A DNA stretch of 53,293 nt, taken from NCBI GenBank assembly GCA_035063765.1, contig JAPSFT010000025.1, positions 1 through 53,293 of the forward strand, written 5' to 3'. This stretch comes from Deltaproteobacteria bacterium (GTDB lineage: Bacteria > Myxococcota_A > UBA9160 > PR03). Shown in pieces: positions 4,579-53,293 of the stretch. The position numbers and the translations under genes are program-made. A model generated the notes under the pieces. It saw only the letters and a list, made by a program, of their open reading frames with translations. It was not told the origin of the DNA and searched no databases. The stretch's first letter is position 1. Each line of letters begins with the position of its first letter.

Positions 4579-5727
4579 CTAGCCCCGCGTCTCGGCCCAC
4601 GCCCAGTCGAGCCAGGGCAGCAGCGCCTCGAGGTCGTCGCGCTCGACGGTCGCGCCGCCCCAGACGCGCAGGCCGGGCGGCGCGTCGCGGTAGCTCGCGA
4701 CGTCGTAGGCGACGCCCTCCTTCTCGAGGAGGCCGCACAGCCGCTTGATCACCTCGCCCTGCGCCTGCTCGTCGAGCCCGGCGAACCAGGGATCGGCAAC
4801 CCGCAGGCAGATCGAGGTGCAGGAGCGCGTCGCCGGATCGCTCGCCAGGAACTCCACCCAGGGCGTGCGCGCGACCCACGCGGCGACGGCTTCGAGGTTG
4901 GCCTCGGCGCGCGCGACGAGCCCCGCCAGGCCGCCGGCCGACTCCGCCCAGGCGAGCCCGTCGAGCGCGTCCTCGACGCAGAGCATCGAGGGCGTGTTGA
5001 TGGTCGAGCCCTCGAAGAGCGCCTCGTCGAGCCGGCCCTTCTTCGCGAGCCGGAAGATCTTCGGCAGCGGCCAGGGAGGGGTGTGGGATTCGACCCGCGC
5101 CACCGCCCGCGGCGAGAGCGCCAGCATCCCGTGCGCCGCCTCCCCGCCGAGCACCTTCTGCCAGGACCAGGTGACGACGTCGAGCTTCTCCCAGGGCAGC
5201 TCCATCGCGAAGACGGCCGAGGTGGCGTCGCACAGGACCAGGCCCGTGCGCCCGGCCGGGATCCAGTCGCCGCCCGGGACCCGCACACCCGAGGTCGTGC
5301 CGTTCCAGGGGAAGATCACGTCGCGGGCGAAGTCGACCTGGCGGAGGTCGGGGAGCGCGCCGTAGGGCGCCGCGAGGACCCGCGCGTCGAGCCGGAGCTG
5401 CTTCGTCGCGTCCGTGACCCACTCCTGGCCGAAGCTCTCCCAGGCCAGCACGTCGACCGGCCGCTCGCCGAGCAGCGACCACATCGCCATCTCGACCGCG
5501 CCCGTGTCCGAGGCCGGCACGACCGCCAGCCGCCAGCCCGCCGGCATGCCGAGGATCGCCTTGCTGCGCTCGATCACCGCCTGGATGCGCGCCTTCGGCT
5601 CCTTCGCCCGGTGCGAGCGCCCGACCAGCGCCCCCTTCAACGCCTCGAGCGACCACCCCGGCCGCTTCGCACAGGGCCCCGACGAGAACTGGGGACGTTG
5701 CGGGCGGCGCACAGGCTTGGTGGCCAA
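4579..5727 (-). CDS. serC: Phosphoserine aminotransferase
   Basis: A 382-residue PLP enzyme of the serine pathway that interconverts 3-phosphohydroxypyruvate plus glutamate with phosphoserine plus 2-oxoglutarate. The PLP lysine is Lys191 in [21 protein letters not shown] at the N-terminus, [11 protein letters not shown] and [10 protein letters not shown] are the hallmarks of the alphaproteobacterial-type SerC subfamily rather than the E. coli type. Translation starts at a TTG (5727) preceded at good spacing by GGAGGAG, so the rare start is well supported. It ends with TAG, which shows that amber is an ordinary stop codon in this genome. The upstream flank carries the long inverted repeat at 5749-5843. 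Confidence 0.92.
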
Positions 5728-5748: not shown

Positions 5749-5843
5749 AGCGGCGGGGACAGTCCCGGCGATCCGGCGATTCCTCGATGTCCGGTCGGCT
5801 CGAGGTCGACAATCGCCGGATCGCCGGGACTGTCCCCGCCGCT
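5749..5843. repeat. Dispersed palindromic element, full copy 1
   Basis: A perfect inverted repeat with 33-bp arms (5749-5781 and 5811-5843) around a 29-base centre. The centre itself can pair CCTCGA with TCGAGG. Each arm contains the small hairpin GGGACAGTCCC followed by GGCGATCCGGCGATT. The same arm occurs at 40837-40927 (full) and 47587-47614 (half). Here it lies between the divergent starts of serC and the vWA gene. It resembles REP/BIME-type elements mobilised by RAYT transposases. No transposase lies in this window. Confidence 0.9.
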
Positions 5844-5875: not shown

Positions 5876-6712
5876 ATGGGGCGGACGGCAGGGGTCGGGC
5901 TGGCGGTCTGGCTGGTCGCGGTGGCGGCGGTTCCGGCCCGGGGTGCGAGCTCTGCGGCGAGGCCGGCCCCGCCCGGCCCCGTCGATCTCGCGATCGTCAT
6001 CGACGTCTCGGGCTCCGCCCGCGCCGCCTCCGGCGTCGACGTCGACGGCGACGGGACGGTCGGGATCAACCCCCAGCTCGACTCCCGCCTCACGGGCCGG
6101 TACCCGAAGGACGTCGTCTCGACCGACCCCGACGACTCCGTCCTCGCCGCCGAGCTGGCCGCCGTGCGGGCCCTGCTCGGCCAGCTCGATGGCGCCGGCG
6201 GCGTCCGGGTCGCGGTCGTCGCCTTCTCGGGCCACATGGACCCCGAGAAGGGCACCCAGTCGGGCCCACCCGACCAGAACGCGCGCATCGTCGCGCCCCT
6301 CGGCGGCCTCCCTGCCGCCCGCGCCGCCCTCGACGACATCGCCCGCCGCGGCCCCTCCGGCGGCACCGACTTCTCCGCTGCGATCGGCGCCGCTCGCAAG
6401 GCCCTGTGCGACGCCCCCGCCCGCGCCGGCGCCACCCGCCACGCCCTGCTCCTCACCGACGGCGTCCCCTCGCTCCCCTTCGGCTTCGCGACCCGCACCG
6501 ACCCGAGCGACGTCTCCGCCGCCATCACCGCCGCCCACGACGCGCGCGACTGCGGCGTCCGCATCGACGTCTTCGCGATCGGCCTCGGCGCCACCGGCGA
6601 TCCCTTCGCGTCGAAGGAGGTGTCGCGCATCACGGGCGGGGTGTACCGGCCGATTCGCGCCACCGGCGCGCTGAGGGAGGCGCTCGAGGGTGCGCTGACG
6701 GCGGCGCCCTGA
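5876..6712 (+). CDS. Secreted von Willebrand factor A domain protein
   Basis: A 278-residue protein with an N-terminal signal peptide (residues 1-24, Leu/Val/Ala-rich, ending Ala-Arg-Gly-Ala) followed by one vWA domain. The metal-ion-dependent adhesion site is complete: DVSGSA (Asp43, Ser45, Ser47), the threonine of GGTDF (Thr164) and Asp195 of [16 protein letters not shown] segment just after the MIDAS looks like a calcium-binding EF-hand/dockerin loop. It is expected to act as a surface or periplasmic protein-protein contact module. Its partner is unknown. The ATG at 5876 has GGGAGGG upstream, and a TAGCAT hexamer at 5852-5857 may be the -10 box. Confidence 0.85.
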
Positions 6713-34264: not shown

Positions 34265-34289
34265 GGCCGCTCGCGGGCCGGGGCCGCCC

Positions 34290-35510
34290 TCACGGCATGC
34301 CTCTCGCCGGCGCCGCCCGCGGCGCTCGCTGGGCCGGCTCTGCCTGCGGCGCTCCCTGGGCCGGCGCCGCCTGCGGCGCTCCCTGGGCCGGCGCCGCCTG
34401 CGGCGCTCCTTGGGCCGGCGCCGCCTGCGGCGCCTCTTGGGCCGGCGCCGCCCTCGGGACCTCGTTCGCAACCCGGCGGGGAGCGCTCCCTGCCGGCGGG
34501 GCCTCCTCGACCAGGTAGACGTTGCCCTCGGTACCCGGCTGGAAGCGCTCGACGTCCTCGAGGATCCGCACCTTGGCCCGGTAGACCTGCCCGATCCGGT
34601 CGCTGCGGGTCTCGATCTTCTCGGGCGTGAAGTTGGCCTCGCTGGCGACGAAGGAGACCTCGCCCGGCACGCGCCGGTCCGGCGTGCTGTCGAGCTCGAT
34701 CTCGACGCGGGCGCCCACCCGCACCCGGTCCACGTCGCTCACCGGAACGTAGATCTGCACGTACTTGTCGAGCGGGTCGAGTACCGAGAGCACCGGCGTG
34801 CCGGGCTGCGCGAGCTCGCCCGGCCACAGGAGCTGTGCCTGCACCACGCTGGCGGCCGCCGGCGCACGTACGTCGTGCTTCGCGCGCTGCACCTCGAGCT
34901 CGCCGAGCTGCGCGCGGGCCAGCTCGAGCTGCCCGCGAAGGACCTCGAGCGCGCGCCGCGCGAGCGCGATCTCGCCCTCCTGGGCGCGGCTGCGCGCCAG
35001 GAGCTCGCGAGCACGCTCGACGGCGCTGCGCGTGGCGTCGTGCCCGGCGCGTGCCTCGTCGAGCCGCTGCACCGAGACGACGCCGTCGGCCCTGAGCTTC
35101 TCGGTGCGCGCGAAGGTGCGCGCCGCCAGGACGGCGTCGGCCTGCGCCTGGCGCAGCGCCGCCTCCTGCGCCGCCACGTCCTGGGTCCAGGTGGCCTCGA
35201 CCAGCGCCACCTGCTCCTCCTGCTGGCGGATCCGGGCCTCGAGCACGCCCAGCTCCTCGCGCTTCGAGGCGATCTTCGCGTCGATCTCGCTCGGGTCGAT
35301 GCGTGCCACCACGGCGCCGGCTGGCACCGCGTCGCCCTCGCCGAAGGCGACCTCGAGCACGCGCCCGTTCACCTCCGCGCGCAGCACGCGCTGCTCGCCT
35401 TCGACGAAGCCCGTGTAGTGACGCGCACCTTCGTCGCGGCGCAGCCACACGATCAGGGCGGCCGCCACGGCGAGGAGCCCCGCTGCTGCCAGCAGCCGGC
35501 GGCGGTTCAC
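34290..35510 (-). CDS. HlyD-family periplasmic adaptor with a 9-residue repeat tail
   Basis: A 406-residue membrane-fusion protein that links the ABC exporter to the outer membrane side. It has one N-terminal membrane anchor (residues 7-24), then a biotinyl-lipoyl half (NGRVLEVAFGEGDAVPAGAVVARI). A long coiled-coil hairpin (about 75-210) is followed by the second lipoyl half (HDVRAPAAASVVQ) and a beta-barrel (YVPVSDVDRVRVGARVEIEL). After GTEGNVYLVEE the last 60 residues are low complexity, with about five 9-residue repeats of the type QAAPAQGAP. That tail is not part of the normal fold. The GTG at 35510 overlaps the tetR stop. By order it equals YbhG. Confidence 0.9.
   Translation of the reverse strand: MNRRRLLAAAGLLAVAAALIVWLRRDEGARHYTGFVEGEQRVLRAEVNGRVLEVAFGEGDAVPAGAVVARIDPSEIDAKIASKREELGVLEARIRQQEEQVALVEATWTQDVAAQEAALRQAQADAVLAARTFARTEKLRADGVVSVQRLDEARAGHDATRSAVERARELLARSRAQEGEIALARRALEVLRGQLELARAQLGELEVQRAKHDVRAPAAASVVQAQLLWPGELAQPGTPVLSVLDPLDKYVQIYVPVSDVDRVRVGARVEIELDSTPDRRVPGEVSFVASEANFTPEKIETRSDRIGQVYRAKVRILEDVERFQPGTEGNVYLVEEAPPAGSAPRRVANEVPRAAPAQEAPQAAPAQGAPQAAPAQGAPQAAPAQGAPQAEPAQRAPRAAPARGMP
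34304..34458. repeat. 27-bp tandem repeat inside the hlyD 3' end
   Basis: About 5.5 copies of a 27-base unit (for example GGGCCGGCGCCGCCTGCGG plus CGCTCCCT, at 34358-34384), with a few substitutions between copies. The period is nine codons, so gain or loss of units keeps the hlyD frame. It encodes the Ala/Pro/Gln-rich tail. The unit is open in other frames too, so it creates spurious open frames on both strands. Confidence 0.9.
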
Positions 35511-39628: not shown

Positions 39629-40873
39629 GTGATCGTCCACCGTCCGTCCGGGTCCGCCCGGCCCGCGTTCGTGCCGTGTGCGTCCCTGGTGCTGGCGCTG
39701 CTCCTCGCCGCGCCGCCCGCGCGCGCCGCCGATCTCGCCGAGCGCGCGCGCACGCTGGTCGGCGCCGATCAGGGCGTCTACGTCGAGGCCGAGGACGGCA
39801 CCGTGCTGGTGGCCCAGCAAGCGGCGCGCCCGGTGCACCCGGCCTCGGTGTCGAAGGTCCCGACCACGCTCGCGCTCCTGCGCGCGCTCGGGCCCGCGCA
39901 CCGCTTCGAGACGCGCTTCGCGGCGGGCGGCCCGCTGCGCGACGGGCGCATCGACGGGCCGCTCGTGGTCGCCGCCGCCGGCGATCCGTTCTTCGTCGAC
40001 GAGAACGCGCTCCTGGTGGCGCAGGCCCTACGCGAGGCGGGCGTGCGCGAGGTCGCCGGGGGGCTCGTGGTGCAGGGACCGCTGCTCTTCGACTGGGAGT
40101 CGGAGGCGGCGGGCCCGCGCCTGCGGCGCGCGCTCGCAGGCGGCGCTCCGGCGGCGGCCTGGCAGGCGGTGCGGGCGCAGGGGGGCGGCGACGGCGCCCC
40201 GCCCGCGCTGCACTTCACCGGCGGGACCGTGCCCGCGAAGGCGAGTCCGGTCACGCTCGTCACGCACCGCTCGGAGCCCCTGATCCCGCTCCTGAAGGCG
40301 CTGAACGGCTATTCGAACAACATCTTCGCCGCGCTCGCGCAGGCGGCCGGCGGCATCGCGGCCGTGCAGGCGGACGTCCGCGGGATCCTGCCCGAGGCCT
40401 GGCGCGAGGAGCTGATCCTCGGTGACGGCGCCGGAGCGCACCGCAGGAACCGGATGAGCCCGCGCGCCACGGTGGCGATCCTGCGCGCGCTCGAGGCCGA
40501 GCTCGCACGCCACGGCCGCACGCTCGCCGACGCGCTGCCGGTGGCCGGCGTCGACGACGGAACCCTGCGCCACCGCCTCGACGGCCCCGGCGAGCGCGGC
40601 GTCGTGGTCGCCAAGACGGGGACCTACGGCTCCTACGGCGCCTGCGCGCTGGCCGGCGCGCTGCGCACCGAGCGGCGGGGGATCGTGTACTTCGCGGTGC
40701 TCAACCGCGGGGTCCCGGTCGAGCCCGCCCGCCGCCGCCAGGACGCCTTCGTGCGAGCCCTCCTCACCGAGCTCGGCGCCCTGCCCTGGGGCTACCAGCG
40801 CGACGACACCCCCGCCTTCGCCCGAGCTGAGGTGTTCGGGGACAGTCCCGGCGATCCGGCGATTCGACGGTAG
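39629..40873 (+). CDS. dacB: D-alanyl-D-alanine carboxypeptidase, PBP4 (S13) type
   Basis: A 414-residue periplasmic penicillin-binding protein that trims or cleaves peptide cross-links in peptidoglycan. It has a signal peptide (core LVLALLLAAPPARAA), then the active-site motifs: SVSK (Ser73, Lys76), SNN (Ser229, Asn231) and KTG (Lys329). I chose the GTG at 39629, behind AAGGGGGG; a TTG six bases earlier is possible. The domain between the first two motifs is smaller than in E. coli DacB. The last 12 codons ([12 protein letters not shown]) and the TAG stop come from the left arm and centre of the palindromic element at 40837-40927, so the native C-terminus was replaced or extended by that insertion. 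Confidence 0.88.
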   Translation: MIVHRPSGSARPAFVPCASLVLALLLAAPPARAADLAERARTLVGADQGVYVEAEDGTVLVAQQAARPVHPASVSKVPTTLALLRALGPAHRFETRFAAGGPLRDGRIDGPLVVAAAGDPFFVDENALLVAQALREAGVREVAGGLVVQGPLLFDWESEAAGPRLRRALAGGAPAAAWQAVRAQGGGDGAPPALHFTGGTVPAKASPVTLVTHRSEPLIPLLKALNGYSNNIFAALAQAAGGIAAVQADVRGILPEAWREELILGDGAGAHRRNRMSPRATVAILRALEAELARHGRTLADALPVAGVDDGTLRHRLDGPGERGVVVAKTGTYGSYGACALAGALRTERRGIVYFAVLNRGVPVEPARRRQDAFVRALLTELGALPWGYQRDDTPAFARAEVFGDSPGDPAIRR

Positions 40874-40927
40874 TCCGAGCGAAGCGCGGGCAGCGAGCGA
40901 ATCGCCGGATCGCCGGGACTGTCCCCG
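40837..40927. repeat. Dispersed palindromic element, full copy 2
   Basis: A perfect inverted repeat with 30-bp arms (40837-40866 and 40898-40927) and a 31-base centre, sharing its arm with the copies at 5749 and 47587. Flanking CTGAGG (40827-40832) and CCTCAG (40928-40933) extend the symmetry. It lies between the convergent genes dacB and the response regulator and could work as a two-way terminator. The dacB stop falls in its centre. Confidence 0.9.
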
Positions 40928-40929
40928 CC

Positions 40930-42432
40930 TCAGTCGCTGGTGCTGTCGCCCATGGCGAGGCGCTTCATCATCTTCTGGAGCGACTGGCGCGGGATGCCGA
41001 GCTTCTCGCTGGCCTTGCTCTTGCTGCCGGTCTCCTCGAGCGCGCGCTGGATCATGCGGCGCTTGAGCTCGTCGACGGAGCGGTTCAGGTCCCAGTCGAA
41101 GCCGGGCAGCTCGACCGCGGCGGCGGACTCGTCGCCGGCCGGGCGCCCGCGCACGTGCTCCGAGAGCATATCGACGGTGATCGTGTCGGCGTCGCCCGCC
41201 AGCGCCACCACGCGCTCGATCTCGTTCTCGAGCTCGCGCACGTTGCCGCTCCACGGGCAGGCCACCAGCCGGTCCATCGCGGCGTTCGTGAAGCCCTTGA
41301 TGCGGCGCGACATGCGGGCGGTCGCGTGCTCGAGGAAGTGGTGGGCCAGCACCGGGATGTCCTCGCGCCGCTCGCGCAGCGGGGGAATCGCGATCTCGAC
41401 CACGCGCAGCCGGTAGTAGAGGTCCTCGCGGAACTTCCCCTCCGACACCATCCGGCGCAGGTCCTTGTTGGTGGCGGCGATCACGCGCACGTCCACCTTG
41501 CGCACGTCGGAGGCGCCGAGCGGCCGGATCTCGCCGTCCTGGAGCACGCGCAGCAGGCGCACCTGCATGCTCATGTTGGTCTCGCCGATCTCGTCGAGGA
41601 AGATCGTACCGCCGTGGGCGTGCTCGAAGAGCCCCTTCTTGTCCTCGTGGGCGCCGGTGAAGGCGCCGCGCTTGTGGCCGAAGAGCTCGCTCTCGAGCAG
41701 CGTGTCGGGCAGCGCGCCGCAGTTCTGGGCGACGAAGCGGCCGGCCTTGCGCGCGCCGGCGTAGTGGATCGCGCGCGCCACCAGGTCCTTGCCGGTGCCG
41801 GTCTCGCCGCTGATCAGCACCGTCGCGTCGGTGCCCGCCACCTTCTCCATCACCTCGAAGACGCGCTGCATCGCCGGGCTCGAGCCGATCAGGCTGTCGA
41901 AGGCGTAGCGGCGCTCCACCTCGCGGCGCAGGTAGAGGTTCTCGGCGCGCAGCCGCTCGTTGGCGTCGCGCAGCGCGGCGGCGAGCGCGACGTTCTCGGT
42001 GGCGAGGCCGTAGGACTCGAGCGCGCGCCGGACGTTGAGGCGCAGCTCGTCGGGGTCCCAGGGCTTCGCGACGTAGCGGTAGATGCGGCCTTCGTTGACC
42101 GCGCGCACGATCGAGGCGAGGTCGGCGTAGCCGGTCAGCATCATGCGGATCGCCGTCGGATTGCGCTCGATCACCTTCTCGAGGAACTCGACGCCGGTCA
42201 TGCCGGGCAGGACCTGGTCCGCGATCACGAGCGCGATCGGCTCGCGCTCGAGGATCTCGAGGCCCTCCTGGGCGTTGCGCGCGGTGAAGACCCGGTAGTC
42301 GTCGGCGAGCGTGAGCTCGAGGCTCTCGAGGATGCCTTCCTCGTCGTCGACGATCAGGATCGCGTAGGGCTCGCCGCCCCGCGCAGGATCCATCGGGGGT
42401 TGGCGAGGCTCGGCGGGCACGCGCGGGAGCAT
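40930..42432 (-). CDS. Sigma-54-dependent response regulator (HupR/HoxA/NtrC type)
   Basis: A 500-residue transcription activator. The receiver domain (residues about 22-140) has the acidic pair DD29-30 and phospho-acceptor Asp72 (IADQVLPGMTG), with the Lys in YVAKPW. A coiled-coil linker leads to the AAA+ domain: Walker A GETGTGKD near 210, GAFTGA near 258 for sigma-54 contact, and DEIGETNMSMQVRLLRVLQ. A Fis-type helix-turn-helix (SKASEKLGIPRQSLQKMMK) ends the protein. The sequence around the receiver and GAFTGAHEDKKGLFE is closest to hydrogenase-type regulators (HupR/HoxA), but no hydrogenase genes are near. The start is the ATG at 42432; an ATG at 42393 is equally possible, as neither has a clear ribosome site. 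Confidence 0.9.
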   Translation of the reverse strand: MLPRVPAEPRQPPMDPARGGEPYAILIVDDEEGILESLELTLADDYRVFTARNAQEGLEILEREPIALVIADQVLPGMTGVEFLEKVIERNPTAIRMMLTGYADLASIVRAVNEGRIYRYVAKPWDPDELRLNVRRALESYGLATENVALAAALRDANERLRAENLYLRREVERRYAFDSLIGSSPAMQRVFEVMEKVAGTDATVLISGETGTGKDLVARAIHYAGARKAGRFVAQNCGALPDTLLESELFGHKRGAFTGAHEDKKGLFEHAHGGTIFLDEIGETNMSMQVRLLRVLQDGEIRPLGASDVRKVDVRVIAATNKDLRRMVSEGKFREDLYYRLRVVEIAIPPLRERREDIPVLAHHFLEHATARMSRRIKGFTNAAMDRLVACPWSGNVRELENEIERVVALAGDADTITVDMLSEHVRGRPAGDESAAAVELPGFDWDLNRSVDELKRRMIQRALEETGSKSKASEKLGIPRQSLQKMMKRLAMGDSTSD

Positions 42433-42543
42433 ACCCGGGATCGGGTCCGGGGCGCTCCGGACGGCAGGCCGGGCGGGCCGGCCTGCCGTCCGGGAGCCGC
42501 GGAAGCAGTTGCTCCCGCTGCGCCTCCGTGCTTCAGCGCCGCG

Positions 42544-42882
42544 TCAGCGCCGGGCGCGCCCGGTGCTGCGGCGAGCGGCCGGCTTGCGCGTGCGCCTCGC
42601 GGTGCGGCGCGGAGCGGCGCGCTTCGCGCCGCGGCGTGCCGTGCTCCGGCGCGCGCCCGGCTTCGCCATCTTCGCCTTCGACACGTCGCCTTCCTTGTCG
42701 ATGAAGTAGAGGAAGCCGTCCTCGCGCTTCACGCCGACCTTGGCGACGACCTGCGGCTTGCCCTTCGGCGCCTTGCCGCCGCCGCGGGCCATCCGGGCGC
42801 GGCTCACGTCGCCCTTCTTGTCGAGGAAGTAGAGCCACCCGCGCTCGCGGGTGATGCCGGTTCTCGCGATCTTGGTGGCCAT
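42544..42882 (-). CDS. Small highly basic protein with two LYF-DK-GDVS repeats
   Basis: A 112-residue protein, not in a family I can name. It contains two tandem copies of a short module: GWLYFLDKKGDVSRARMAR near residues 15-33 and GFLYFIDKEGDVSKAKMAK near 53-71. A Gly/Lys linker joins them. The last 40 residues are almost only Arg, Ala, Lys, Ser, Thr and Pro, like histone H1/Hc1 tails. The ATG at 42882 has a strong ribosome site (AGGAGAGAGA). A promoter with a perfect TTGACA box lies 113-141 bases upstream, so high expression is likely. A DNA- or RNA-binding, nucleoid-type role is an inference from charge only. Confidence 0.8.
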   Translation of the reverse strand: MATKIARTGITRERGWLYFLDKKGDVSRARMARGGGKAPKGKPQVVAKVGVKREDGFLYFIDKEGDVSKAKMAKPGARRSTARRGAKRAAPRRTARRTRKPAARRSTGRARR

Positions 42883-42994
42883 GGGCCGTCTCTCTCCTGT
42901 GTGGGCGGTCCGGGGATGCCGGGCCGGTTGCCGTCGAGTCGGCAGGGGAGGAGACGCCGCGGGCTGGGGTGTGGCAGCCGCGGTGACGCCTCGC

Positions 42995-43023
42995 AGTGTG
43001 CCCGGCTCCCCCGTGGGTGTCAA
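42995..43023 (-). promoter_or_regulatory. Strong promoter of the small basic protein gene
   Basis: On the minus strand TTGACA (43018-43023) is followed by a 17-base spacer and CACACT (42995-43000), itself followed by GCG as in other -10 boxes of this region. It would give a leader of about 105 bases before the ATG at 42882. The -35 box is perfect. Confidence 0.55.
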
Positions 43024-43085
43024 CGATTTTCCGGGGGGTTAGGACCTGGACCTGCGAGGGAGTGCGACGGGAGCCGCCAGGCTCG

Positions 43086-43100
43086 TTGCCCCCAGGGGCA
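43086..43100. terminator. Short hairpin after gshB
   Basis: TGCCC-CCAG-GGGCA (43087-43100) can form a small GC stem ten bases past the gshB stop. There is no T-tract, so this is at best a weak or Rho-assisted terminator. Confidence 0.25.
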
Positions 43101-43109
43101 CCCGGCTGC

Positions 43110-44102
43110 TCAGGCAACGGGTGAGGCGTCCTCCAGGGCGCTCCGATGCCGGTGCGCCCGGCCTTCGGCGGCCTCGATCACGCGCAGCTCGAGCCGGGTC
43201 TGCTCGAGCGCGTCGATCTCCTGGATCCCGGTCGGGCTCGTGACGTTCACCTCGGTGAGCCGGCCGCCGATCACGTCGATGCCGACGAAGAACAGGCCGT
43301 CGCGCAGGAGGGCCGGGCGGATGCGCTCCACGATGCGGCGGTCCTGGTCGTCGAGCGGGGCCCGCGCGGGCCTTCCGCCGACGTGCAGGTTGGCGCGGGT
43401 CTCGCCCGCGGCAGGGACCCGCAGGAGCGCCCCGAGCACCTCGCCCTCGAGCAGCAGGATGCGCTTGTCCCCCTCGCGTACGGCCGGCAGGTACTGCTGC
43501 GCCATCGCCCAGCGCGTCCCGAAGCCGGTCGCGGTCTCCAGGATCGAGAAGAGGTTGCGGTCGTCGTGACGCAGGTGGAAGACACCCTCGCCGCCCTTGC
43601 CCCCGAGCGGCTTCACGATCATCTGGCCGCCCATCTTGGCCAGGAAGTCGACCAGCTCCGGGATCCAGCGCGTGACGCGCGTCTCGGGCATCAGCTCGGA
43701 GAACTGCAGCGCGTAGAGCTTCTCGTTGGCCCAGATGACGGTGTCGGGGCGGTTCAGCACCAGCGCGCGGCGGCAGAGCGCGAGGATCTGCGTGGCGGCC
43801 ACGTAGTCGGTGTCCACCGGCGGGTCCTTGCGCTGCCAGACCACGTCGGCGCCGTCGTCGAGGGCGACGCTGCGCGGCTCCCCCAGGCTGTAGTGCCGGC
43901 CCGGCTCGCGGCGCAGCTCGACCGGGCGCACGCGCGCCAGCGGCCGGCCGGCGTCCACCGACAGGTCGCCGAGCTCGCAGTAGAGCACGCGGTGGCCGCG
44001 CTCCTGGGCCGCGAGCATCAGCACGAAGGTGGTGTCCTTCGTGCTGTCGATGGACCCGATCGGATCCATCACGAACAGCATCGAGAGCGGGCCGGGCGAC
44101 AC
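43110..44102 (-). CDS. gshB: Glutathione synthetase
   Basis: A 330-residue ATP-grasp ligase joining gamma-glutamylcysteine and glycine. FVMDPIGSIDSTKDTTFVLMLAAQERGH at the N-terminus, VVWQRKDPPVDTDYVAATQIL, NEKLYALQF, MIVKPLGGKGGEGVF (the ATP lid) and FVGIDVIGGRLTEVNVTSPTGIQEID are GshB hallmarks. The GTG at 44102 has GGAGG at good spacing and is preferred over the ATG at 44081. gshA is not in the window. It is divergent from PBP1A across 118 bases. Confidence 0.95.
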   Translation of the reverse strand: MSPGPLSMLFVMDPIGSIDSTKDTTFVLMLAAQERGHRVLYCELGDLSVDAGRPLARVRPVELRREPGRHYSLGEPRSVALDDGADVVWQRKDPPVDTDYVAATQILALCRRALVLNRPDTVIWANEKLYALQFSELMPETRVTRWIPELVDFLAKMGGQMIVKPLGGKGGEGVFHLRHDDRNLFSILETATGFGTRWAMAQQYLPAVREGDKRILLLEGEVLGALLRVPAAGETRANLHVGGRPARAPLDDQDRRIVERIRPALLRDGLFFVGIDVIGGRLTEVNVTSPTGIQEIDALEQTRLELRVIEAAEGRAHRHRSALEDASPVA

Positions 44103-44220
44103 GCTGGGGCCTCCGGGACGCCGCCAAGCGGTAGCGCAGACCGGGGGCCGGAGGCCACGGCGCGCGTCGTCGCCCGGGTGGGCGGCTGCTAGCCTGCCGG
44201 ACGCTCCTCGGGAGATGGGA

Positions 44221-46803
<2,583 letters not shown>

Positions 46804-46805
46804 GC

Positions 46806-47585
46806 GTGGAGCGCGATGTGCGCGAGCTGCCGGCCGGCGCGCAGGCGCGGGCCGGGCGGCGTGCGCCCCTCCGCAGCGAGGCGCAGCCGGCCGACGGCGA
46901 GCTGCGGCGCCTCGACCGGCTCGCGGGCGTGGGCCTGCTCGCCGCCGAGACCGCCCACGAGGTGCGCAACGCGCTCACCGCCGTGAAGACCTTCCTGCAG
47001 CTGCTCCCGGCGCGCGGCGACGACCCGGAGCTGCGCGGGCCCTTCCTCGCCCTGGCCGGCGAGGAGGTCGCCCGCATGGAGCGGCTGCTCGACGCGCTGC
47101 TCGAGCAGGCGCGCGGGGCGGCGAGTGCGGGCGGCGACGCGGTGCGGCGCTGCGATGCGGCGGCGGCCGTCAGCGCCGTGGCGCAGCTCGTCGCCCGGCG
47201 CGCGGCGGAACGTGGCCTGCACCTCGCGGTGGAGCTGGCCCCGGAGCTGCCGGAGCCGGCGATCGCCGCCGACGCGCTGCGCCAGGTGCTGCTGAACCTC
47301 GCGCTCAACGCGCTCGAGGCGACACCCGCCGGTGGCGACGTGCGGATCGGCGGCCGCGCGCTCGGCCGCGCGCTCGAGCTGGCGGTCGAGGACCGCGGCC
47401 CGGGCATTCCGGCCGCCCTGCGCCGCCGCGTCTTCGAGCCCTGGTACTCGACCCACGCCGGACGCCCGGGCGGGCTCGGACTCTCGATCGCGCGCCGCCT
47501 CGTCGACGAGGCCGGCGGCACGATCTCGATCGGCGACCGCGCCGGAGGCGGCGCCCGCATCCGCGTCCGCCTGCCCGCCCTCTGA
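46806..47585 (+). CDS. Soluble histidine kinase
   Basis: A 259-residue kinase core without membrane helices or a recognisable sensor domain. The phospho-acceptor is His51 in ETAHEVRNALTAVKTFLQLL. The ATP-binding domain has the N box NLALNALEAT, the G1 box EDRGPGIP, an F-box-like FEPWYSTH and the G2 box GGLGLSIARRL. It starts at a GTG two bases after the PBP1A stop, so it is translationally linked to a cell-wall enzyme. Its response regulator is not obvious; the sigma-54 regulator at 40930 is 4 kb away on the other strand. The palindrome half-copy begins two bases after its stop. Confidence 0.88.
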   Translation: MERDVRELPAGAQARAGRRAPLRSEAQPADGELRRLDRLAGVGLLAAETAHEVRNALTAVKTFLQLLPARGDDPELRGPFLALAGEEVARMERLLDALLEQARGAASAGGDAVRRCDAAAAVSAVAQLVARRAAERGLHLAVELAPELPEPAIAADALRQVLLNLALNALEATPAGGDVRIGGRALGRALELAVEDRGPGIPAALRRRVFEPWYSTHAGRPGGLGLSIARRLVDEAGGTISIGDRAGGGARIRVRLPAL

Positions 47586-47586
47586 G

Positions 47587-47614
47587 GGGGACAGTCCCGG
47601 CGATCCGGCGATTC
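47587..47614. repeat. Dispersed palindromic element, half copy
   Basis: One arm only (GGGGACAGTCCC followed by GGCGATCCGGCGATTC), the same as the arms at 5749 and 40837. It lies between the convergent 3' ends of the histidine kinase and the alpha/beta hydrolase. The second arm is absent. The arm can still fold into its internal GGGAC/GTCCC hairpin. Confidence 0.85.
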
Positions 47615-47625
47615 TCGGGGCGGGC

Positions 47626-48267
47626 TCAGCGACCGAGCCAGCGCGTGACCTCGTTGCCGAGCGCTGCCAGGCCTGCCGCGAAGAAGTGGTCGGCGTCCTC
47701 GAGCAGGACGAAGCGGACAGCCGGCCGCTCCTTCGCGATCGCCTCGAGCGCCGCGGGCGGCGCGATCGCGTCGTGGCGGCCCGCGAGCAGCAGGACCTGG
47801 CGCTCGCCGGCACCGAGCCGCTCGGCAGCGAGCAGCGCCGGCGGCGGCGCGACCAGGACGAGGTGCGTGACGCGCGGCTGATCGGCAGCGGCGAGGAGCG
47901 CGGCCGCGGCGCCGAACGAGTAGCCGGCGGCGACCAGCGGCCCCGGCTCGCCGCGCCCGAGCTGGAGGAGCGCCGCGGCGAAGTCCCCGGCGCCGTCGGC
48001 GAGCGCGCCGCTCGGCGCGCCCGTGCTCCCGCCGACGCCGCGCCAGTTGAAGCGCAGCGACGCGAGCCCCGCCTTCGTGCACGCCCACGCCAGCTCCGTC
48101 ACGACCGGCGATTCCATGCTGCCGCCGTAGAGCGGATGTGGAGGCGCGATCACGGCCCCGCCCCGCCCGGCGTCGCCCGCGACGTAGAGCCCTTCGAGCG
48201 CCTCGCCGCGCTCCCCCGCCTCGCCGAGCCACGGGATCGCCGTGCTCCGCTCCTCGCGCTTTGCCAC
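47626..48267 (-). CDS. Alpha/beta hydrolase (YcjY/DUF-type small esterase)
   Basis: A 213-residue compact alpha/beta hydrolase. APPHPLYGGSM is the oxyanion-side loop and RFNWRGVGGSTG a typical stretch. The nucleophile Ser lies in GYSFGAAAAL, the acid is probably the Asp in LAGRHDAIAPP, and the base is the His in EDADHFFAAG. The GTG at 48267 follows GGAGGAAGG. The substrate is unknown. The gene is divergent from nth, with only 27 bases between the two start codons. Confidence 0.85.
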   Translation of the reverse strand: MAKREERSTAIPWLGEAGERGEALEGLYVAGDAGRGGAVIAPPHPLYGGSMESPVVTELAWACTKAGLASLRFNWRGVGGSTGAPSGALADGAGDFAAALLQLGRGEPGPLVAAGYSFGAAAALLAAADQPRVTHLVLVAPPPALLAAERLGAGERQVLLLAGRHDAIAPPAALEAIAKERPAVRFVLLEDADHFFAAGLAALGNEVTRWLGR

Positions 48268-48294
48268 CCCTTCCTCCTGCTACCCTGCGCGCCG

Positions 48295-48981
48295 ATGGCT
48301 CGCGAGACCGACGCCGAGCGCCGACGCCGCGCGCTGCGCATCGTGCGCCGGCTCGCCGCCGCCTACCCCGACGCGCGCTGCGCCCTCGACTTCCGCAGTC
48401 CCTTCGAGCTGCTGGTCGCCACGATCCTCTCGGCCCAGTGCACGGACAAGAAGGTGAACGAGGTCACCCCGGCGCTCTTCGCCCGCTACCCGACCCCCGC
48501 GGCGCTGGCCGATGCGAAGCCCGCCGAGGTCGAGGCGATGATCCGCCCGACCGGCTTCTACCGCCAGAAGACCCGCGCGATCCAGTCCTCGGCCCGCGAC
48601 ATCGTGGAGCGCTTCGCCGGGCGCGTGCCCGGCACCATGGAGGAGCTGCTCTCGCTCCACGGCGTCGCGCGCAAGACCGCCAACGTGGTGCTCGGCAACG
48701 CCTTCGGCGTCCCGGGGCTCACGGTCGACACCCACATGAAGCGGGTCCACGCGCGGCTCGAGCTCACCCGGCACGAGGATCCCGTGAAGATCGAGCGCGA
48801 TCTCATGGGGCTGATCCCCGAGCCGGAGTGGACGCTCTACTCGCACCGCGTGATCCACCACGGGCGGGTGTGCTGCGTGGCGCGCCGCCCGCACTGCGAG
48901 GCCTGCCCGCTCGCCGCCGACTGCCCCTGGCCGCGCCGGCATGCCGGCGTGCTCCGCGCCGTCCCCAAGGCGCGCCGATGA
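48295..48981 (+). CDS. nth: Endonuclease III
   Basis: A 228-residue DNA glycosylase/AP lyase that removes oxidised pyrimidines. The helix-hairpin-helix is LHGVARKTANVVLG with catalytic Lys127, and the catalytic Asp is Asp145 in VDTHMKRV. The 4Fe-4S cluster has the standard spacing Cys194-x6-Cys201-x2-Cys204-x5-Cys210. ILSAQCTDKKVNEVTPALF is also diagnostic. TACCCT at 48281-48286 just upstream may be the -10 box of a nearly leaderless mRNA. Its TGA overlaps the ATG of the NUDIX gene. Confidence 0.97.
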   Translation: MARETDAERRRRALRIVRRLAAAYPDARCALDFRSPFELLVATILSAQCTDKKVNEVTPALFARYPTPAALADAKPAEVEAMIRPTGFYRQKTRAIQSSARDIVERFAGRVPGTMEELLSLHGVARKTANVVLGNAFGVPGLTVDTHMKRVHARLELTRHEDPVKIERDLMGLIPEPEWTLYSHRVIHHGRVCCVARRPHCEACPLAADCPWPRRHAGVLRAVPKARR

Positions 48982-52248: not shown

Positions 52249-53177
52249 GCTCGCGCTCCCCGCACTCCGACTGGGCCGGTCACGGCCACGAGCACGTCCA
52301 CGAGCACGAGGGCCCGTGCGCGGAGGGCGACGGCCGCGGCGGGCTCGGCGGGTTCCTGCGTTCGCTGCTCGCGGGCATCCCGTGGAGCGAGCGGGTCGAG
52401 GTTCTCGAGACACGGACCCTGCCGGCGCCGCGCTCGGGCGCGCTGCGCCTCGACAACGCCAACGGCATGACCCGCATCCTCGGCGAGGACCGGAGCGACG
52501 TCGAGGTGAAGATGCAGAAGGTGGCGCGCGCCGAGAGCACGGCGGCCGCGGAGGCGATGGCGCAGGAGATCCGCCTCGTGCGCCACGACACCGACTCCGG
52601 CACCGAGCTCGAGGTGGAGGCGCCGCGGCGCTGGAACCGGCGCGGGCACGCGAACCTCGAGCTGCGCGTCCCGCGCGGAACCCGCGTCGAGGTCTCGGCC
52701 TCGAACGGGAAGGTCTGCGTCGCCGGCCTCGGCAACGGCCTGCGGGTCCGCTCGAGCAACGTCGCCGTGCGCGTCGAGGACGTGAGCGGCGACGTCGAGA
52801 TCCACGCCTCGAACGCGCGGCTCCTGTGCGCGGGGGTGTGCGGGCGCCTGCTGGCGCGGACCAGCAACGGCAAGATCGAGGTCGAGCGCCATCGCGGCGC
52901 GCTCGACGCCTCCTCCTCGAACGGCCTGATCCACGCCGCCATCGAGGAGCTCGGCGGCCCGGTGGTGCTCGCGACGAGCAACGGCAAGATCGCCCTCGAG
53001 CTGCCCGACGAGGTCGACGCCGACGTGAACCTGCGCGTCGACAACGGCGTGATCCGCAACCAGCGCTCGCTGTGCCGCTGCACCCGCTCGAGCGGCGGCC
53101 GCCTCACCGGCCAGCTCGGCAAGGGCGGTACCCCGATCAAGCTGCGCACCTCGAACGGCTCGATCTCGCTGCGCTAG
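52245..53177 (+). CDS. DUF4097-type beta-repeat protein with His-rich N-terminus
   Basis: A 310-residue protein. Residues about 10-25 are a metal-binding-like His cluster (HGHEHVHEHEGPC). From about residue 65 to the end the chain is a right-handed beta-repeat of the DUF4097 (putative adhesin) type, with many short turns such as SNGKV, SSNVAV, SNARL, TSNGKI, SSNGLI and SNGSI. There is no signal peptide or membrane helix, so secretion is not supported by the N-terminus. It is coupled to cobB through ATGA. Its function is unknown; relatives accompany stress-response or envelope genes. It ends with TAG. Confidence 0.82.
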   Translation: MSSRSPHSDWAGHGHEHVHEHEGPCAEGDGRGGLGGFLRSLLAGIPWSERVEVLETRTLPAPRSGALRLDNANGMTRILGEDRSDVEVKMQKVARAESTAAAEAMAQEIRLVRHDTDSGTELEVEAPRRWNRRGHANLELRVPRGTRVEVSASNGKVCVAGLGNGLRVRSSNVAVRVEDVSGDVEIHASNARLLCAGVCGRLLARTSNGKIEVERHRGALDASSSNGLIHAAIEELGGPVVLATSNGKIALELPDEVDADVNLRVDNGVIRNQRSLCRCTRSSGGRLTGQLGKGGTPIKLRTSNGSISLR

Positions 53178-53293
53178 TGTCCTGTGTCGGAAGTTCGCCG
53201 TCGAAGTCTCGAGCCGTCGCGGGCGGCTGGGTGTGCACCGAGATCGCGGCTACGGGCCGCTCGCAAGGCGCGCGACCGAGCCATGGCCGTCGC
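53174..53293. other. Possible left end of an insertion sequence
   Basis: Directly at the stop codon of the DUF4097 gene the sequence reads CTAGTGTCCTGTGTCGGAAG. That looks to me like a terminal repeat of IS630/Tc1-like elements inserted at a TA. The remaining 100 bases contain no complete gene; an ATG near 53284 starts a frame that leaves the window. The right end is outside, so this cannot be confirmed here. Confidence 0.28.

Follow-up and report, generated by a model that had tools for sequence, protein, structure and literature searches.

Perfect palindromes in a deltaproteobacterial genome as probable REPIN-like doublets of a TIRYT-type transposase family

The 53,293-nucleotide contig JAPSFT010000025.1 of a Deltaproteobacteria bacterium (here the window; it is one entire contig, C25, of the 57-contig, 4.416-Mb genome G000) carries two perfect palindromes and a lone palindrome arm at the borders of genes, which raises the question of what these repeats are and by what means they were dispersed. 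The original prediction, made from the window alone, regarded the repetitive extragenic palindromes (REP) that are moved by REP-associated tyrosine transposases (RAYT, with a Y1 fold) as their nearest known class and could not name the exact family. The analysis reported here indicates that the palindromes are very probably non-autonomous doublets, similar to the REP doublets known as REPINs, of the terminal inverted repeat (TIR) of a TIRtron, and that they are tied to the single TIRYT-type HUH/Y1 transposase of G000. Direct support was obtained for the existence of the arm family and its link to the gene, the species-reciprocal pairing of transposase and repeat, the doublet as a unit, and the presence or absence of whole transposase units. 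Both perfect palindromes (33-bp and 30-bp arms) and the lone arm were present as first described, and they are composed as follows.

5749-5781, plus strand: left arm of TIR doublet 1, subtype T,C, holding most of the 28-nt unit 5755-5782
5782-5810, no strand: centre of TIR doublet 1, 29 nt of unique sequence
5811-5843, minus strand: right arm of TIR doublet 1, sited between divergent genes
40837-40866, plus strand: left arm of TIR doublet 2; in the gene calls its bases are the C-terminal codons of an S13-peptidase gene (39689-40873) upstream
40867-40897, no strand: centre of TIR doublet 2, 31 nt, in which the upstream gene has its TAG stop (40871-40873)
40898-40927, minus strand: right arm of TIR doublet 2; 3 nt separate the end of its 28-nt unit from the convergent gene's stop
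47587-47614, plus strand: single TIR arm, 1 nt downstream of a histidine-kinase gene (46806-47585) that ends in TGA

The arms are 100% complementary in both doublets, with a length of 33 nt each and a distance of 29 nt in doublet 1, and of 30 nt each and 31 nt in doublet 2. Further copies, whose absence the original prediction had named as a point that would speak against it, were found throughout G000, where 67-70 arms were counted: a 27-base arm pattern with at most three mismatches gave 67 matches (34 + 33) and the reversed pattern none, and a degenerate arm pattern gave 70. When folded as single-stranded DNA, the doublets reached a z of about -12.6 against their shuffles. A chance origin of the arm family is therefore excluded, because 67 matches stand against 0 for the reversed pattern and the doublets fold with z = -12.6. 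The arms were grouped into 43 arrays at about 40 distinct loci, slightly fewer than the arrays because a single site appears in some cases to have been split over two contig ends. In G000 an arm lies within 100 bp of at least 13 contig ends, compared with 0.17 expected, and the ends that stop in or beside a palindrome belong to G000:C2, C6, C11, C13, C16, C23, C28, C32, C39, C43, C45, C46 and C51; assembly breaks therefore conceal further copies. To judge by the core that they share, the ends of C6/C13 and those of C16/C39 are probably chromosomal neighbours.

The conserved arm unit has 28-29 nt and reads [C]GGGGACAG(T/A, rarely G)CCCGGCGAT(C/T)CGGCGATTC, and C at position -1 is the sole frequent base outside it. 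No precise insertion-target motif was found in the flanks of the elements, where only this C is common and the distance to the stop codon is variable. The internal hairpin GGGACAGTCCC, which the original prediction described in the arm, is not conserved: it is broken in about half of the copies, which read GGGACAGACCC, and two copies read GGGACAGGCCC; moreover, shuffled versions of an isolated arm fold equally well (z 0.4). A short hairpin inside the arm was accordingly rejected as the recognised structure. Neither a GTAG nor a CGTC tag is conserved across copies in the arm or its flanks.

A Y1/RAYT gene with a palindrome arm on both sides, which had been proposed as a check, does exist, once, in G000. 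This only Y1_Tnp gene of the genome (G000:C7:249503-250504) encodes a protein of 333 aa, P0001, and has the arm on either side in inverted orientation, the two copies forming a 34-nt TIR with one mismatch, the head GGGGACAG and a span of 1,090 bp. P0001 matches Pfam Y1_Tnp with 43.8 bits (cut-off 23), and its residues H60 and H62 (the HUH motif) and Tyr119 are invariant across a 13-protein alignment. In the AlphaFold2 model of P0001 (mean pLDDT, the predicted local distance difference test, 83), the helices at residues 220-294, which may form a C-terminal domain resembling a helix-turn-helix (HTH), are confidently predicted, and they are conserved in the alignment; the Bac_DnaA_C match of the protein is weak (16.8 bits versus a cut-off of 31.5). 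The best match of the model in the PDB was the REP-bound TnpAREP 4er8 (E 4e-6), followed by the IS200/IS605 transposases ISDra2 TnpA and IS608 TnpA. It was also observed that the 3' end of the transposase gene (L032:4504-4580) is read from one of its own two TIR arms, which encodes the tail of the protein.

The link between transposase and TIR was then examined in two further genomes, G001, a congener with about 78% DNA identity to G000, and G022, from another family of the same order. The G000 arm has no copies in G001, which harbors a different RAYT-type gene flanked by GTCAAGAAAGGGGTCGGGTTGGA; this latter sequence is present in 228 copies in G001, in inverted pairs, and in none in G000. Similarly, the TIR of the G022 gene, which is perfect, has 56 copies in G022 and none in either G000 or G001. 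The pairing of transposase and TIR is thus species-specific and reciprocal in three genomes, as predicted from such a link. Across the order, most RAYT-type loci are flanked by TIRs with GGGGAC/GGGGTC-like heads and span mostly 0.9-1.25 kb, and no comparable flanking TIRs were found at the IS200-type loci L199-L207. A RAYT search of the genome contigs returned two good relatives (L106 and L107), the others being weak. The RAYTs of G000 and G001 are 40% identical and were not grouped in a tree of weak support, which suggests that the two congeners may have acquired them separately. The comparison of empty orthologous sites, which had been recommended, was successful for the transposase units: the G000 unit is absent at the orthologous G001 site (250 bp there versus 1,133 bp in G000), and the G001 unit is absent at the orthologous G000 site (47 bp there versus 972 bp in G001). 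It failed for base-exact palindrome sites: at the one window site whose two flanks could both be aligned to G001, an unrelated 88-bp spacer stands there in place of the palindrome.

To what extent the doublet behaves as a unit was analyzed in 22 inverted pairs of G000. Both arms were of the same subtype in 21 of the 22, whereas 100,000 permutations gave a mean of 5.8 and a maximum of 15, and when the test was rerun without the contig-end pairs, whose loop-only centres may be assembly artefacts, the arms still matched in 18 of 19. It follows that spread, or correction, acts on whole doublets. The perfect arms had been attributed to recent spread or strong selection, with which the data are compatible, and the arm-to-arm matching adds that it is the doublet that counts. 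The centres measure 27-35 nt in 16 pairs, 7 nt in three, 0 in two and 54 nt in one, the longest containing a nested partial unit. A centre shared among the doublets was rejected by an all-against-all comparison, in which the centres were mostly unrelated between copies and only the pair L045/L046 was likely related. In a few copies the complementarity extends 5-9 nt into the flanks. As for G001, its doublets have identical arms within a copy in 21 of 21 cases, although the copies differ, and the arm pairing continues toward the loop via matched changes. In individual G001 doublets (e.g. L127:838-923 and L165:5862-5947), the loop-proximal bases were seen to vary between copies and to be almost always complementary within a copy. 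Judged from these sequences, the matched loop-proximal changes may be a sign of arm symmetrisation or of selection for a perfect hairpin.

These features fit the GGGGWSAS TIRtron/TIRYT class, which supplies the family name that the original prediction was lacking. According to Di Nocera et al. 2013 (PMC3733652), TIRYT genes have TIRs sharing the sequence GGGGWSAS, and some of these TIRs are dispersed as singles, dimers or groups. The present family likewise combines a Y1 transposase having the HUH motif and the tyrosine with long flanking TIRs whose head GGGGACAG fits GGGGWSAS exactly, and its TIRs are repeated in the genome in the same three forms. It differs in belonging to a new lineage, a high-GC order of metagenome-assembled genomes, in having a new arm sequence, and in comprising three reciprocally exclusive families within the same order, two of them with matched arms, a situation not described in the consulted part of PMC3733652. 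Most TIRYTs were placed by Quentin et al. 2018 in subclass 2.1, with C-terminal HTH-like domains (Bac_DnaA_C, HTH_23 or HTH_28); their article (PMC6006769) found the surroundings of subclass 2.1 genes to be free of REP-like sequences and states that further analyses were needed to link the subclass and the TIRYTs. The G000 family probably belongs to subclass 2.1 of TnpAREP, with which it shares a long protein, TIRs of the type GGGG[AT][CG]A[CG] and, going by the weak Bac_DnaA_C match, possibly a C-terminal HTH-like domain, and from which it departs in the clear dispersal of its flanking TIR, in the form of REPIN-like doublets. It is a probable new TIRYT member that shows the TIRYT features tested, apart from the HTH match, which is weak; the comparative evidence is unusually clean.

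The resemblance to the REPINs of the GTAG REPs and their RAYTs is one of architecture. As in the REPINs of Bertels and Rainey 2011 (PMC3116915), the inverted doublet forms one long hairpin with conserved ends and a variable spacer of roughly fixed length, and the RAYT is encoded once, elsewhere in the genome; the arms here, unlike those of REPINs, are not REPs, having neither the GTAG tag nor a hairpin of their own. Compensatory changes and diverse spacers have already been reported for REPINs (PMC3116915; PMC8049555), and homodimers for REPs (PMC3733652). With the IS200/IS605 elements the family has the HUH/Y1 fold in common, but the IS200-type Y1 loci of the same order lack flanking TIRs, and the gene described here is single-copy and has long inverted repeats as its ends.

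A different explanation of the palindromes had to be weighed against their placement: RNA hairpins at 3' ends that serve the host, as bidirectional terminators or as mRNA stabilisers, are kept by selection and owe nothing of their present distribution to the transposase. Genes were called by a small gene finder based on codon usage, for which 400 kb of G000 had served as training sequence. The copies of the window had been described as all intergenic, which is nearly so, the exception being the left arm of doublet 2 (40837), which is contained in the 3' end of the predicted S13-peptidase gene. The one divergent and two convergent sites also stand for the window, but genome-wide, among 29 sites, tandem ones (12) are as common as convergent ones (11), with 6 divergent. 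The convergent share exceeds the 4.1 expected from intergenic bases (P 0.001). Moreover, of 46 element edges facing gene 3' ends, 27 were located at 0-8 nt from the stop and 9 overlapped it, with 15 edges near the stop in 22 usable cases versus 9.2 under uniform in-gap placement (P 0.0005), and the doublet hairpin is very stable, all of which would suit an RNA function. The TIR family of G001 likewise clusters at stop codons (19 of 41). Such proximity is, however, also typical of mobile REPs, for which clustering at stop codons is reported in PMC3733652. Simple termination, the other outcome that would have told against a mobile repeat, was not borne out either: a terminator-like hairpin scan of 40500-48500 gave no match at 40837-40927 or 47587-47614, no T tract is visible at any of the three window sites, and an intrinsic (Rho-independent) terminator was rejected on these grounds. 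No Rfam RNA family scored above the gathering score in the window. Since six sites are divergent, and since the repeat sequence is fully replaced between congeners, always along with the RAYT, a purely host-functional origin appears unlikely, whereas a secondary RNA-hairpin role besides transposition may exist.

Two further explanations are less probable still. Classical REPs or bacterial interspersed mosaic elements (BIME) that belong to the GTAG class of RAYTs, and whose tag has been lost or altered, would share the doublet layout, the extragenic siting and a RAYT relative, as these are described for REPINs in PMC3116915 and PMC3733652. Yet the arms have no GTAG or CGTC tag, the lone arm does not fold and the inner hairpin is broken in half of the copies, and the gene is flanked by long TIRs instead of REPs and has a C-terminal extension that may resemble that of subclass 2.1; membership was rejected on the tag and fold tests, leaving this possibility largely refuted and hardly credible. 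Of the original assignment, the dispersed repeat tied to a RAYT/Y1 gene thus holds, and the REP/BIME label, for want of the tag and of an own stem-loop, does not. In the other account, template switching during replication, or gene conversion where DNA folds back, made the palindromes and keeps them symmetrical, and ordinary recombination, not a transposase, dispersed them. It would account for arms that match inside a doublet although copies differ, for the complementarity reaching into the flanks in a few copies, and for the differing centres. This account seems highly improbable, as it leaves unexplained both why in each of three genomes the family always matches the TIRs around the RAYT found there and why the doublets have similar lengths; template switching may nevertheless act on top of transposition.

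Several observations weigh against the assignment of the palindromes to a TIRYT system. The two TIRs around the RAYT differ in subtype (T,C versus A,C), the NCBIfam model REP_Tyr_transpos (NF047646) gives the protein 78.8 bits, just under its cut-off of 80, and two relatives at a greater distance have only 3 and 2 TIR copies. With 72-80% identity, the flanks of the empty sites are too diverged for the insertion points to be placed with single-base precision; neither a transposition event nor an excision read nor a target-site junction was seen. The unrelated centres of most copies are not explained by simple copying of a unit, and, more generally, centres of similar length without relationship, together with symmetric arm variants, are left unexplained by the TIRYT model.

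Most likely, the TIRYT transposase would recognise the GGGGACAG-headed arm, and inverted TIR doublets would be carried along as non-autonomous elements. The doublet, once single-stranded on the lagging strand or at excision, would fold into one long hairpin, and by analogy with the HUH/Y1 family the transposase would nick the arm ends by HUH-tyrosine chemistry, via Y119, and carry the doublet in single-stranded form to new sites. Most surviving copies would be those just past stop codons, the least harmful sites, where they may also serve as 3'-end RNA hairpins. The arm symmetry would follow from a step of fold-back copying or correction. As a tentative and rather doubtful extension, a TIRYT of subclass 2.1 might keep REPIN-like populations in which the recognition unit is the whole perfect palindrome and not a REP stem-loop, its arms symmetrised by fold-back copying within the transposition cycle and arm variants spreading only as matched pairs, the transposase-palindrome pair being swapped whole between congeners. 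On the TIRYT reading the palindromes can be explained without a new mechanism, and the repeats that break the assemblies of this organism are now identified. The TIRYT branch of the REP-type transposases is widespread and little studied, and three genomes with a tested species-specific pairing, including two congeners with wholly different pairs, make substrate recognition and co-evolution directly testable.

The remaining genes beside the two doublets of the window are the following.

4579-5640, minus strand: gene with no Pfam match, on one side of doublet 1
5876-6712, plus strand: VWA-domain gene, divergent from the former, on the other side of doublet 1
40930-42393, minus strand: sigma-54-activator gene, convergent with the S13-peptidase gene, beside doublet 2

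The single arm at 47587-47614 lies 11 nt before the end of a convergent alpha/beta-hydrolase gene (47626-48267). This arm (window 47562-47634) coincides with a synteny break, its flanks being about 25 kb apart in the congener G001 (C75:5673-30758), which could reflect a deletion in G000 by inter-arm recombination or an insertion in G001. Two other repeats were observed in the window. At 34279-34457, at the 3' end of the minus-strand gene 34290-35510, a tandem array with a 27-nt unit consists of five overlapping 71-nt copies spaced 27 nt, and probably encodes a 9-residue protein repeat. A second dispersed repeat, beginning with TAGTGTCCTGTGTCGGAAGTTC, starts at the contig end of the window (53173-53293); it has no other place within the 590 kb of G000 examined and is found at more than 10 places in G001, with 76-93% identity.
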